A DNA stretch of 20,949 nucleotides from positions 1-20,949 of IMG/VR virus record IMGVR_UViG_3300008050_000407. One strand, written 5' to 3'. Position numbers and translations under genes: made by a program. The notes below the pieces were generated by a model. That model was not told the origin of the DNA and ran no database searches. It saw only the letters and a list, made by a program, of their open reading frames with translations. This stretch comes from a virus. Shown here piece after piece: positions 11,702-20,522 of this stretch; position 1 is the stretch's first letter, and each line of letters begins with the position of its first letter.

Positions 11702-12204
11702 TACGCGCCACCATCAACATAGATGACTTCGCAACAAAGCGTACCGCCTGCGCCCATATCCGTGGTGACAACAGCCGTAACGTCGTACCACAGTTGAGGG
11801 TCTGCTGAGAGGCCAAGAGCTTCCCAAAGCGGTTTGTCGCGGTCTTCGATCCCGTAAACAGCGCTTTCGTGCGCCGCTTCCGAAAGGGTCAGACCACCGC
11901 CGACTGCCAACGCCGAAGCGAAGAAATCAGCGTCAACCGCTGCGCCACCATCATCATCAGTGCGATAGATACCGAGGTTAATCGCTCCTGACGTAATTGC
12001 AGCATCAGACGAAACAAGAACGCTTTTAATCATCGCATTGGACCGCACCCGGCAGAACCGGATTTCGTCATCAGCATCCGTGGCAGTCGAAACTTCCACA
12101 ATACCAACGCCAGTGGTTTTCATCTTCGCGTCATTGTAAGGCTCGTTAGCAACACGCGGGGTTGCCGCGCGGTTGCTGATCAGTGTGCTATCAAGGTCTG
12201 CCAT
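11701..12204 (-). CDS. Head decoration-like protein after the capsid gene (167 aa)
   Basis: This 167-aa acidic protein starts MADLDSTLISNRAATPRVAN and is made largely of short beta strands with turns (GIVEVSTATDADDEIRFCRV, IKSVLVSSDAAITSGAINLG, LWYDVTAVVTTDMGAGGTL). That composition suits a jelly-roll or beta-sandwich protein on the capsid surface. It lies directly downstream of the major capsid gene, 4 bases from its stop, with a GGAG SD that overlaps the end of the capsid frame. Many phages encode a cement or decoration protein or a head fibre at this place. The function is inferred from position and fold style, with no diagnostic motif. It could instead be a head-completion protein. Confidence 0.6.
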   Translation of the reverse strand: MADLDSTLISNRAATPRVANEPYNDAKMKTTGVGIVEVSTATDADDEIRFCRVRSNAMIKSVLVSSDAAITSGAINLGIYRTDDDGGAAVDADFFASALAVGGGLTLSEAAHESAVYGIEDRDKPLWEALGLSADPQLWYDVTAVVTTDMGAGGTLCCEVIYVDGGA

Positions 12205-12208
12205 GATA

Positions 12209-13154: not shown

Positions 13155-13196
13155 ACTGGGGCCGTCTCTGCGATTTTAGGCTTCGTCAGCCCCAGT
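13155..13196. repeat. 8-bp inverted repeat with 26-nt loop in capsid leader
   Basis: ACTGGGGC (13155-13162) and GCCCCAGT (13189-13196) are exact inverted repeats within the 102-base gap between the 60-aa gene and the capsid gene. On the plus strand the stem is followed by CTTTT, and on the minus strand by TAGGACAAGCC without a T-run. It is therefore a poor terminator for the late transcript. It could be a processing site or an attenuator of antisense transcription. Confidence 0.4.
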
Positions 13197-13207
13197 CTTT
13201 TCCGGTG

Positions 13208-13390
13208 TCAGGAGGAGGCTTTGCCTTTATCTCCGAGCTTAGGGGCCGACTTCGGGGGCAATGCCTTGTCCTCGCCAGCCATAACCCAATCTGTCAACAC
13301 TTCCGCATCGCGCACAAGTCTTTGCGCTTCGCGGACGCCCATTGCAGACAGGGCTTCTATTGACCGCATTCTAACTTCACGTTCAAACAT
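13208..13390 (-). CDS. 60-aa small protein between scaffold and capsid
   Basis: The frame starts at ATG (13388-13390) as MFEREVRMRSIEALSAMGVR; a TTG two codons upstream (13396), adjoining the scaffold stop, is an alternative. The sequence GGGAGAAGGATAA upstream contains SD matches for either start. The chain is an Arg/Glu-rich helix (residues 1-40) followed by a Lys/Pro/Ser-rich tail (PPKSAPKLGDKGKASS). No family is recognised. Small helical proteins at this place may assist scaffold or capsid assembly, but that is only context. Tight packing against the scaffold gene supports a real gene. Confidence 0.65.
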   Translation of the reverse strand: MFEREVRMRSIEALSAMGVREAQRLVRDAEVLTDWVMAGEDKALPPKSAPKLGDKGKASS

Positions 13391-17803: not shown

Positions 17804-17862
17804 TACGATACCCGAATATTGAATACGTCAAAGTACAGCGAGTGGAAATCAGGTAAAGTCAT
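17803..17862 (-). CDS. 19-codon coupling ORF between small and large terminase
   Basis: An ATG at 17860-17862 overlaps the small terminase stop (ATGA), and the frame MTLPDFHSLYFDVFNIRVS ends in a TAA overlapping the large terminase ATG (TAATG). A strong SD (TAAGGA, 6-base spacer) precedes it, while the large terminase itself has only weak SD sequence. The likely role is to carry ribosomes from terS to terL in a set ratio. The peptide has no recognisable function. It is small enough that chance cannot be excluded, though two exact overlaps plus an SD are hard to explain otherwise. Confidence 0.5.
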   Translation of the reverse strand: MTLPDFHSLYFDVFNIRVS

Positions 17863-18563
17863 ATCTTGTCCTTACCAAAAGAACCGAGCGAAGGCAATAT
17901 TTCCTCTACCAGATCAGGCGTTACGTCAGTATCGCCGAGTGGCGTTACGTCAGTATCGCCGAGTGGCGTTACGTCAGTAACTTCGGATTGAAGTGGTGTT
18001 TTTGTGGGGGAGTGGTTGGCAACAACTTTTCCGGCGCGCGATTTCCCCCCACCCCCACCCCCTGCGGCATCCTGCGCGATCAATTCCGTGGGCGCGTGGG
18101 TCGCGCGATCCTTTACCGGGGTAACATCAATCGCCTTTGATCCCCCCAATAGTTCAAACAATTCTTGTGTTGCTTGTTCGGTTTCAAGCTGATGGTTGTG
18201 GTTCACCTCTATTCGCTGGACATCAAGACCCATTAGCTTTGCGATGTTCATCACTGCGCTATTCGCTGCGCCAAGCTGTTTGTCGCGCACTGCTATCTCG
18301 CGATGCTCTAACAGTTGGGCAATTAGAGTATCGCGCGTGATCGCCGTGTCGCTGTTTAACTGTTGCTGATACGCCTCAAGCGCCAGCTTGATCTTGGGCT
18401 TGCGCGCGATCTGATGCCCTTTTTGTTGGGAATAGGTCAATTTGTGTTTTTTGGCCGGATATGCGGCAATAAATGCCGCTGATTGTGTCGCCCCGGTCGC
18501 CAATTCCATCACGAATTTAGCCTCGCCAGTGTCTAATCCTACGAATGGATCGGGTTTTTTCAT
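17859..18563 (-). CDS. terS: Terminase small subunit
   Basis: The N-terminal half fits the Terminase_2-type small subunit: a helix-turn-helix DNA-binding region with EAKFVMELATGATQSAAFIA and QQKGHQIARKPKIKLALEAY, then an oligomerisation helix (IAQLLEHREIAVRDKQLGAA, AVMNIAKLMGLD). It selects phage DNA for packaging and presents it to TerL. I use ATG 18561-18563 (MKKPDPFVGLD, 234 aa); an in-frame ATG at 18590 adds nine residues but has no SD either. The C-terminal 80 residues are low-complexity: a hexaglycine run (GGGGGGKS, encoded by a C/G-rich tract at 18044-18063) and 2.6 copies of VTPLGDTD. Such tails usually contact TerL or the portal. The stop overlaps the 19-codon ORF. Confidence 0.8.
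   Translation of the reverse strand: MKKPDPFVGLDTGEAKFVMELATGATQSAAFIAAYPAKKHKLTYSQQKGHQIARKPKIKLALEAYQQQLNSDTAITRDTLIAQLLEHREIAVRDKQLGAANSAVMNIAKLMGLDVQRIEVNHNHQLETEQATQELFELLGGSKAIDVTPVKDRATHAPTELIAQDAAGGGGGGKSRAGKVVANHSPTKTPLQSEVTDVTPLGDTDVTPLGDTDVTPDLVEEILPSLGSFGKDKI
17917..17979. repeat. 24-bp tandem repeat, 2.6 identical copies, in terS
   Basis: Units at 17917-17940, 17941-17964 and the partial 17965-17979 are identical and begin GGCGTTACGTCAGTATCGCC. The unit keeps the terS frame and encodes the repeated octapeptide VTPLGDTD. Complete identity, including silent sites, points to recent slippage expansion and to a copy number that may vary among relatives. Confidence 0.9.
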
Positions 18564-18590
18564 GTTTTTGCGCCTGATTTGTTGCTGCAT

Positions 18591-18740
18591 TTCAGTATTT
18601 TTGCATTTTTAGACCCAAAATACAAAATTATTTGCCGGAATTTGCTTTTTTGGGCTTGATTTATGCACAATGCATATACTATGTATGTGACAGACAGGAT
18701 GGCCCTGCCTAAGCATCACAACAGAAAAGGAACAAAGAAA
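18591..18740. promoter_or_regulatory. Divergent intergenic control region with overlapping dyads
   Basis: This 150-base AT-rich gap lies between leftward late genes and rightward early genes and holds no ORF I can support. For the plus strand, TATACT (18675-18680) is a good -10 match, but no convincing -35 lies 16-18 bases upstream (TTGGGC at 18650 is 19 away). TATGCA-CAA-TGCATA (18662-18676) and CATA-TAC-TATG (18673-18683) are small dyads overlapping that -10, which suggests an operator. CCCAAAA (18614-18620) and TTTTGGG (18648-18654) pair at longer range and could be a bidirectional terminator or structured leader. The exact promoters are uncertain. Confidence 0.45.
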
Positions 18741-19610
18741 ATGAAAAATCAAGAGATCATGGAAGAGGTTGCAAACCGCGTCGTTAAGTTGATGGAAACG
18801 CACGGAACAAATTGGGTAAAACCTTGGCAGGGTTCAAGCGGTTTCCCCCACAATATCGCATCAGGCAAAAATTACCGTGGCATCAATGTTATCTTGCTTA
18901 TGTCAGCCGGTTTCAGCACGTCAGTTTGGGGAACGTACAAACAGTGGTCGGCCAAGGGCGCGCAAGTCGCCAAGGGCAGCAAGGGAACACGCATTGTATT
19001 CTGGAAGCCGCTGGACGTTGACGATAAAGACAAGCCCGGCAAAAAGAAACAAATCTGGATGCTGAAAACATACGTTGTTTTCAACGCTGATCAGGTTGAA
19101 GGGTATGACGCGCCAACACTTCCAACAATTGCCGCACCAAGCGAAATCGCGTGTCCAGAGATGGACGAATATTTCGCAAAGGCTGGCGTTGATTTGCGGC
19201 ATGGTGGCGATAAAGCATTTTTCAGCCCAATGGCAAATTTCGTGCAAATGCCGAACAAAAAAGACTTCAACGGCACGAAAACCAGCACGGCACGTGAAGC
19301 CTACTATTCAACACTCGCCCATGAGGTAACACATTGGACCGGACACGCAAGCCGTTTGGATCGGATCAAGGCAAGCCGTTTTGGCTCAAAGGATTATGCT
19401 TTCGAGGAATTGGTGGCAGAATTGGGCGCGGTGTTTATGTCAATGCAATTTGGGATAAGCCCAGCACCCCGCCCAGATCATGCGCAATACCTCAATAACT
19501 GGATTGCCGCGATGAAGGAAACCCCGCGCGTTATATTCAGCGCCTGTAAAGACGCGCAAGCCGCTATGGATTGGCTTGAAACTGAAACAGGTACAACAAT
19601 AGCAGCTTGA
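18741..19610 (+). CDS. ardC: ArdC-type antirestriction protein (ssDNA-binding domain plus zincin metallopeptidase domain)
   Basis: The start is MKNQEIMEEV, after the A-rich leader AAAAGGAACAAAGAAA shared with neighbouring genes; a longer frame from 18663 would extend across the promoter region. The N-terminal domain (about 1-115) has the ArdC N-terminal signature: NWVKPWQ, GKNYRGINVILL, WGTYKQW, KGSKGTRIVFWKP. The C-terminal domain is a zincin: HEVTH (194-198), then GHASRLDR and the EELVAELGA helix (223-231) supplying a third metal ligand. The 289-aa length is usual for the family. ArdC proteins protect incoming DNA from type I restriction by binding ssDNA, and a proteolytic role is suspected. 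As first gene of the rightward arm it is placed for early expression, like T7 gene 0.3. Confidence 0.9.
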   Translation: MKNQEIMEEVANRVVKLMETHGTNWVKPWQGSSGFPHNIASGKNYRGINVILLMSAGFSTSVWGTYKQWSAKGAQVAKGSKGTRIVFWKPLDVDDKDKPGKKKQIWMLKTYVVFNADQVEGYDAPTLPTIAAPSEIACPEMDEYFAKAGVDLRHGGDKAFFSPMANFVQMPNKKDFNGTKTSTAREAYYSTLAHEVTHWTGHASRLDRIKASRFGSKDYAFEELVAELGAVFMSMQFGISPAPRPDHAQYLNNWIAAMKETPRVIFSACKDAQAAMDWLETETGTTIAA

Positions 19611-19611
19611 T

Positions 19612-19693
19612 AGGATAGCTCAGTTTTGCAGCGCTACATGCGCTGCAATGCCGGGAATATCCCGACAACAGAAACAGAAAAGGAACAAAGAAA
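19612..19693 (+). ncRNA. Double-hairpin intergenic element, copy 1
   Basis: Directly after the ardC stop comes AGGATAGCTCAGT, then a perfect 9-bp stem (TTGCAGCGC, loop TACAT, GCGCTGCAA; 19626-19648), a 5-bp stem (CGGGA, ATA, TCCCG; 19652-19664), and the shared leader CAACAG...AAAAGGAAC with the SD. Copy 2 at 20291-20366 preserves both stems with compensatory changes. It is typed as ncRNA because it is a structured RNA segment of the mRNA. It could be an RNase III processing site between early messages or a translation control element. Confidence 0.6.
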
Positions 19694-19978
19694 ATGTCAT
19701 ATGATAAAATCAGCCGATACCAAACCGACGTAATCGAAAGCGATGGCAGCGGGATGGTTAAATATCGCAATACCGTAATTGTGGAATGGAACGCGGAAAC
19801 AATTACCTTGCGTTCTGGTGGTTGGGAGACCGTGACCACCAAACGCAAAATGAACCAAGCCGCAAATGAATTTTGCCTAGGTTTTAGCGTGTACCAGAAA
19901 AACCACGATTGGTTTGCAACCTTGCCCAATGGCGAAACCGTGACATTTGACGATGGCATGACATTTGAAAGGAACTGA
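19694..19978 (+). CDS. Small protein of the early arm (94 aa), unknown
   Basis: It starts MSYDKISRYQTDVIESDGSG at the ATG after the leader AAAAGGAACAAAGAAA. The chain alternates short beta strands (NTVIVEWNAETITLRSGGW, WFATLPNGETVTFDDGMTF) around a central helix (NQAANEFCLGFSVYQ), suggesting a small alpha/beta fold. The 'NGETVTFDDGMTFERN' ending resembles small phage proteins of the host-takeover region that I cannot assign to a family. It is preceded by double-hairpin copy 1. The next gene begins four bases after its stop, and that gene's SD (AAAGGAAC) lies inside this gene's last codons, so the two are probably co-translated. Confidence 0.75.
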   Translation: MSYDKISRYQTDVIESDGSGMVKYRNTVIVEWNAETITLRSGGWETVTTKRKMNQAANEFCLGFSVYQKNHDWFATLPNGETVTFDDGMTFERN

Positions 19979-19982
19979 GAAA

Positions 19983-20297
19983 ATGAAAACGATCATCATA
20001 AACGGCAAAGAGCTAAAAGTTTCAGCAGTACAGGAACGGGCTTTGCGCGAATTGAAAAACTCAGATTTTGCTGCAACGCGCGGTTCATTTTCGGAAAAGG
20101 CAGGCGCACCGGGTTGGCGCTATAACAAATTCACTCTGCCAACAATATTGGGTGATGTGTTTGGCGTGTTCGAAACGTACAACGGCCATCAAGCCACAGC
20201 ACGGGAACACGCATTTTTTAAAGCACATCCTCGCTGTCGTTCTGGCGTTTTTGGCAACCCAAGGCGCATTAACGCAATTCTAGTCAAATTAGGATAG
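19983..20297 (+). CDS. Small protein of the early arm (104 aa), unknown
   Basis: The start is ATG 19983 (MKTIIINGKELKVSAVQERA), nine bases after the AAGGA core of the shared leader; an earlier in-frame ATG at 19965 lies inside the previous gene and lacks an SD. The N-terminus is a beta hairpin (TIIINGKELKVS) leading to a helix (AVQERALRELKNSDFAATRG). A Lys/Gly-rich middle and HQATAREHAFFKAHPRCRSG follow, then a C-terminal GNPRRINAILVKLG. The chain is basic, and nucleic acid binding is possible but not shown. The stop TAG is part of the first bases of double-hairpin copy 2 (AGGATAGCTCAGT), so the element begins inside this gene's coding end. Confidence 0.7.
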   Translation: MKTIIINGKELKVSAVQERALRELKNSDFAATRGSFSEKAGAPGWRYNKFTLPTILGDVFGVFETYNGHQATAREHAFFKAHPRCRSGVFGNPRRINAILVKLG

Positions 20298-20366
20298 CTC
20301 AGTAATGTAGCGCTACACGCGCTACATTGCCGGGGTATTCCCGACAACAGAAAAGGAACTGAGAAA
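20291..20366 (+). ncRNA. Double-hairpin intergenic element, copy 2
   Basis: AGGATAGCTCAGT is followed by a perfect 10-bp stem (AATGTAGCGC, loop TACAC, GCGCTACATT; 20304-20328), a second stem (CGGGG, TAT, TCCCG with one G-T pair; 20331-20343), and ACAACAGAAAAGGAAC. Relative to copy 1, a C-G pair became T-A and a T-A pair became A-T, each changed on both sides, while the outermost T-T mismatch became A-T. Flanks and the 5-nt loop are nearly unchanged. This is direct covariation evidence for structure. Confidence 0.6.
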
Positions 20367-20522
20367 ATGGAAAACCAGAAAATGTGGACAGGCAAATGGT
20401 CGGTTGAAAGTGTAATTGAGTATTTTGATACACATTGGGATTGCACGTTGCACGAATTGGGCGCGCTGTCTGGTTGGCGCAAAGCTGAACTGAAAAAACT
20501 TCTAATGGGTGGTGCGGAATGA
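20367..20522 (+). CDS. 51-aa protein of the early arm, unknown
   Basis: The frame starts at ATG 20367 after AAAAGGAACTGAGAAA and reads MENQKMWTGKWSVESVIEYF, then a segment with DTHWDCTLHELGAL, ending SGWRKAELKKLLMGGAE. It is short, mostly helical, and has a 'W-S-V-E-S-V-I-E-Y-F ... T-L-x-E-L-G-A-L-S-G-W-R-K-A-E-L-K-K-L-L-M' pattern. The second half is a two-helix 'LxxLGALSGWRKAELKKLL' unit reminiscent of small helix-turn-helix DNA-binding proteins, where a helix, a Gly turn and a basic helix are in sequence. That resemblance is weak. The stop TGA overlaps the next gene's ATG (ATGA, 20519-20522), so the two are translationally coupled. The shared leader and copy 2 of the hairpin element precede it. 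Confidence 0.65.
   Translation: MENQKMWTGKWSVESVIEYFDTHWDCTLHELGALSGWRKAELKKLLMGGAE

Follow-up and report, generated by a model that had tools for sequence, protein, structure and literature searches.

Duplicated rod-like RNA elements in early-gene gaps of a marine-type bacterial virus: candidate modules for the punctuation of early mRNA

Cleavage by RNase III is established for the early sites R0.3, R0.5, R1, R1.1 and R1.3 of bacteriophage T7 (positions 890, 1468, 3138, 5887 and 6448). When folded with the tools applied below to a different virus, the T7 gaps that hold these sites form rods (-18.5 to -26.2 kcal/mol in four short gaps), followed by a leader, an SD and an ATG; the gap between genes 0.6 and 0.7 is unstructured. 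In gaps 0.4-0.5 and 0.7-1 the first letters, at the stop codon, are TGATAG; gaps 0.4-0.5, 1-1.1 and 1.2-1.3 have a common frame, AAGG..CCTT, around inner stems that differ. The first T7 early gene, 0.3, is an antirestriction gene. Phages also carry clusters of hammerhead ribozymes, one of which flanks ardA, an antirestriction gene; Perreault et al. (2011; PMC3088659) suggested that these ribozymes divide long phage transcripts into mRNAs of gene length. The ESAS of Cluster K mycobacteriophages, finally, are phage-specific inverted repeats upstream of several gene starts, described as a SAS motif adjoining the start plus 17-bp inverted repeats, for which the authors found little support for RNA hairpins (PMC3203893).

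The DNA analysed here as a whole (“the window”, 20,949 bases) is an incomplete contig of a marine-type bacterial virus that carries two related elements, both between early genes. Its rightward arm (all features on the plus strand), as far as shown in the window, has only two sizeable gaps, 19611-19693 and 20290-20366, each filled by one 56-nt element followed by a leader and an SD; the remaining joints are a few bases long or overlapping. First in the arm is an ardC-like antirestriction gene (18741-19610, 289 aa; Pfam ArdcN and MPTase-PolyVal; PHROG anti-restriction protein), which is 58% identical to Roseobacter phage CRP-804 gp1. Copy 1 of the element (19611-19666) begins directly behind the TGA stop of this gene and is succeeded by an A/C-rich leader (19667-19693), predicted to be unstructured, with the SD AAAAGGAAC of the next gene (19694-19978, 94 aa; Kyano_Gp96 family, Pfam PF23790, E=5e-13). 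This family is otherwise found mainly in cyanophages; here it stands in one arm with a Roseobacter-phage-like ardC. The following gene, P0003 (19983-20297, 104 aa, no assigned family), has homologues that mark phages with comparable elements. Copy 2 (20290-20345) begins seven bases before the end of P0003, and its leader (20346-20366) contains the SD of a 51-aa gene for which family searches gave no known family (20367-20522).

An earlier, sequence-only reading of this DNA had described a duplicated element, and the alignment of both gaps bears out its sequence, coordinates and layout. That reading had also let both copies start at or after a stop codon, which holds for copy 1, whereas in copy 2 the TAG stop of P0003 (20295-20297) lies inside the element, within the conserved AGGATAGCTCAGT. 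The copies do end towards a start codon as it had claimed, with an SD-bearing leader and then the next ATG in both gaps. A near-identical SD leader (AACAGAAAAGGAAC..AGAAAATG) is seen before four genes (18720-18743, 19673-19696, 19962-19985 and 20346-20369), once in shortened form. Since this A-rich leader stands without a stem before ardC (18720-18743) and, shortened, before gene 19983, it is not specific to the element. Elsewhere in the window, the C-terminal part of a minus-strand ORF (17859-18590) is encoded with three copies of a 24-bp tandem repeat (17917-17988). The P0003 family comprises 18 aligned phage proteins with the motifs MKTI..NGK..ISA.ERAL.. and GNPRRINAIL, and no similar solved fold was found for the confident AlphaFold model of P0003 (pLDDT 86).

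The two copies differ in 10 of 56 aligned columns, while AGGATAGCTCAGT, GCGCTACA, GCCGGG and CCCGAC are unchanged. Alignment and fold give copy 1 the pairings GGAUA/UAUCC, CUC/GGG and GU/GC, a 9-bp inner stem and the loop UACAU; copy 2 has the same frame, an inner stem of 10 bp and the loop UACAC. The inner stem reads TTGCAGCGC, loop TACAT, GCGCTGCAA in copy 1 (19626-19648) and AATGTAGCGC, loop TACAC, GCGCTACATT in copy 2 (20304-20328). Four of the ten differences fall within the nine-pair inner stem, where they form two double-sided changes (T-A to A-T and C-G to T-A), and all nine pairs stay Watson-Crick; copy 2 gains a tenth (T.T to A-T). These paired replacements had been noticed before, and the alignment confirms them. 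In simulations that placed four changes on the 18 bases of the stem, Watson-Crick pairing stayed intact at all nine positions in 0.13% of cases (P about 0.001), which disfavours the view that the copies are a recent duplication with random differences, named earlier as an outcome that would refute the element. Self-templated repair of a palindrome could be another source of paired changes. Four further differences distinguish AATAT from GTATT, in which TAT is kept, shifted by one and still pairable with an invariant ATA of the 5' strand. Perfect hairpins of at least 9 bp number three in the window, against 0.47 expected from shuffles, and two of the three are the elements.

The minimum-energy fold predicted by RNAfold is, for both copies, a single rod made up of an outer helix, small internal loops and the inner stem, with energies of -27.4 kcal/mol for copy 1 and -29.7 kcal/mol for copy 2 (z-scores -4.5 and -5.2). 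For copy 1 the prediction counts 19 pairs interrupted by small internal loops, an imperfect double strand of about two helical turns; copy 2 has a weaker outer helix, and the A/C-rich leader with its SD is predicted to be unpaired. Of the “double hairpin” originally proposed, the long stem stands, but the outer helix is a competitor of the second hairpin (CGGG-N5-CCCG), with whose loop and 3' arm GGAUA is predicted to pair, and the two-hairpin fold is weaker by 2.3-2.4 kcal/mol. On these predictions, the element is probably better read as one rod, and the folds compatible with the two copies may include a rod, two hairpins, or a pseudoknot between the 5' strand and the loop of the second hairpin. 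The intergenic gaps of these phage contigs are often structured (control mean z -1.64), so the z-score alone proves little; moreover, gaps after ardC have z-scores no stronger than those of control gaps, and structure enrichment as such was therefore dropped as an argument. Because structured gaps are common, the argument is built not on folding energy but on position and on frames that are duplicated while their stems are exchanged.

By sequence comparison, the element appears to be new in its letters and of a kind already known. Rfam 15 gave no match at or above the gathering threshold in the window. Searches with DNA patterns of the element, exact or relaxed, retrieved only tRNAs and chance matches from viral contigs and nothing from genome contigs, and a pattern of loop plus leader only the phage G004 and chance matches. 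With blastn, phage genomes gave no more than weak matches, some 18-32 nt long and for the most part to the A-rich leader. The element had not been recognised as a described one in the sequence-only reading, in agreement with its absence from Rfam and from the viral and genome contig collections searched. Covariance model R1 found no clear further member in 1.5 Mb of related loci; its third match in the window is the leader before ardC, and a gap of G004 (E=0.015) owes its score mainly to loop and leader. The covariance search once suggested as a check thus yielded no more copies of the exact sequence in the loci searched, and covariation of the exact element rests on two copies. A tRNA-like reading was rejected, as the likeness of AGGATAGCTCAGT to a tRNA D arm is one of letters only and neither ARAGORN nor the Rfam tRNA model detected a tRNA or tRNA-like cloverleaf in the element. 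An intrinsic terminator, likewise a GC-rich hairpin after a stop codon, was rejected because a U run is lacking behind either stem; a terminator scan reported neither copy.

Comparable designs were found in other phage contigs. The P0003 protein, used as a query, led to 26 viral loci with homologues. Same-genome pairs of intergenic hairpins had like flanks and mostly different stems in 8 of 97 cases, compared with about 0.5% between genomes, a count that includes overlapping loci and one pair whose stems are identical. Besides the window, families of gaps with the same frame occur in G014, G005, G004 and G018; they begin at or shortly behind a stop codon and close with an SD-bearing leader. 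G014 has four rods of the form AATCC-c-TTTCA-[stem]-TGAAG-t-GGATT (96% of cells paired), in which two inner pairs are changed on both sides, and G005 has three of the form CACC-[AGGCCC..GGGCTTT]-GGTG; with their short U runs, the rods of these two phages could be attenuators. In G004, two rods have an identical stem and a third is unlike them, with the loop UACAU and a leader resembling that of the window. In these contigs the design recurs, and it is from such analogous families in other phages that it draws its support; the association with P0003 homologues was noticed after the search, outside a controlled test.

Two further observations were made in other loci. Another uncatalogued gap element lies directly after ardC in six of them (L136:2041, L138:2331, L167:2617, L168:6653, L170:1162 and L171:5342); it reads TAAA(G/A)CC(T/C)GACT-[variable stem]-GGGCGTGTTTTACGCC-GATTCC. 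Changes on both sides are seen in its last hairpin (L170) and between the 5' strand and the loop (L138, L168), a pseudoknot being possible. In G020, three group I introns are found within 1.3 kb (L338:12655-13882).

In two other phages, the slot of the element is occupied by hammerheads or by RNAs that look like them. The Rfam model Hammerhead_II (type II) matches G022 at L339:12206-12273 and 13180-13243, with 37.5 and 40.8 bits (threshold 37). The first of these overlaps the stop of the P0003 homologue (11806-12207), a position matching that of copy 2 in the window, and the second follows the stop of a gene ending at 13180; both genes are of early type, and the two ribozymes have a common core and different stems. 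In G018, a strict scan detected hammerhead-like cores (CUGANGA..GAAA..UH, three stems) at L304:5925 and 8511, and others were seen by eye. These cores score below the Rfam threshold, with a weak RAGATH-1-hammerhead match, and are therefore treated as hammerhead look-alikes. Similar cores lie on the minus strand of another G018 locus (L334, near 11109, 12831 and 14903); the whole series stands in gaps before SD leaders. The strict scan covered 2.47 Mb of loci and matched in G018 only; in the window, the scan for this core was negative and no Rfam ribozyme matched. As hammerheads or look-alikes occupy the slot in G022 and G018, RNA cutting at this position is plausible.

The explanation that we favour, giving it about even chances, is that the elements of the window are RNase III-type cutting or punctuation modules of early mRNA, the first of which stands directly after ardC. 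They have two features of such sites: a predicted imperfect rod, and a place ahead of an SD leader with early genes of the same orientation on either side. Both gaps would lie in one transcript, on which the translational stop of the upstream gene would come first, followed by the rod and by a leader free of structure that carries the SD for the following gene. A double-strand-specific nuclease, presumably the host RNase III, would cut the 3' side of the rod of about 19 pairs, as in T7, within or beside its internal loops, putatively within 19650-19663 and 20330-20342. The cut would provide the downstream gene with its own 5' end about 25-45 nt before the ATG, while the hairpin left behind would protect the 3' end of the upstream message. 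The T7-like anatomy pointed out in the sequence-only reading is upheld, given that the T7 early gaps fold alike with the same tools. Sequence, duplication, maintained pairing, position and the recurrence of the design in T7 and other phages are observed here, and it is by analogy with T7 and with this design that cutting by RNase III is suggested.

Alternatively, the rod might remain uncut and act as an insulator or stabiliser that halts ribosome run-on, shields message ends and keeps the SD leader open. The stop codon at or inside the rod and the leader predicted to be unpaired would suit this role, as would the many gaps in such phages that are structured without a common design. However, it leaves unexplained that both copies keep one 13-mer of the frame unchanged although their stem drifts, and that self-cutting ribozymes stand in the same slot of other phages, and we regard it as unlikely. 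Rather more doubtful is a translational operator, in which a phage or host protein would bind the hairpin (loop UACAY, AGGATAGCTCAGT) and co-control the two downstream genes; a comparable coordinate control of translation may be exerted by the start-associated inverted repeats of Cluster K mycobacteriophages. Indeed, two genes have the element upstream of their start, the loop and the 5' strand are conserved while the stem varies, and the loop UACAU recurs in one rod of G004. Yet the SD, which is predicted to be open, stands a good way behind the rod, the frames are entirely different between phages, and no repressor is known.

A new small self-cleaving ribozyme, placed where related early arms have hammerheads, seems improbable. 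Slot and gene neighbourhood are those of the hammerheads, and a conserved frame with varied stems resembles the pair in G022, but the element matches no ribozyme family, the fold of the rod is simple, and with two sequences only, the conserved letters may reflect recent common descent. Still less probable is a site at the level of DNA, either a dyad operator or a promoter of the phage in front of each gene. As DNA, the stem forms a nearly perfect dyad, and the promoters of the T7 single-subunit polymerase are located in such gaps; operators, however, retain the letters of their half-sites, whereas here the letters change and the pairing stays, and the stop-codon register and fixed orientation suit RNA. 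The phage-promoter reading is also disfavoured because the conserved 13-mer is confined, within the window, to the two copies, and the late genes show no match to it. Least probable of all is a block of homology for the exchange of early-gene cassettes with no RNA function, which would account for a module with a duplicated frame exactly between small accessory genes, but for which compensated stem changes would be useless.

A bolder proposition would place the element in a class of its own among RNAs that cut mRNA, by self-cleavage or in some other way, in the hammerhead slot, with rods, hammerheads and others interchangeable in a widespread strategy of cutting early transcripts; we consider this a long shot, behind the operator and ahead of the new ribozyme in likelihood. 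If cutting takes place, phages far from T7 would punctuate their mRNA by the same design, though with sequences unrelated to those of T7, and other phages in which a homologous gene occupies that position would use hammerhead ribozymes there instead, so that a ribozyme and an RNase III-type rod would be two solutions to one task. With both as equivalent solutions, the old question of the clustered early-gene hammerheads would become testable. Moreover, uncatalogued phage RNAs might be found as gap elements within one genome that combine a constant frame with swapped stems.

Among the known systems, the ESAS have in common with the window element that inverted repeats stand upstream of starts, while compensated stem changes are a feature of the latter. 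Its arms are 9-10 bp long, compared with inverted repeats of 17 bp, its leader is unlike by sequence, and the SAS motif is absent. The clustered hammerheads of phage and prophage early operons share the slot and, as in the window, an antirestriction neighbour, and a P0003 homologue adjoins them in G022 and G018; they too occur in several copies per phage with changed stems, around a conserved hammerhead core that the window element does not have. With the RNase III sites of T7, the element has no sequence in common, and this fragment holds only two copies; the likeness lies in the stop codon at or in the rod, the internal loops, the succession of leader, SD and start, the shared frame with differing stems, and the antirestriction gene as a neighbour.
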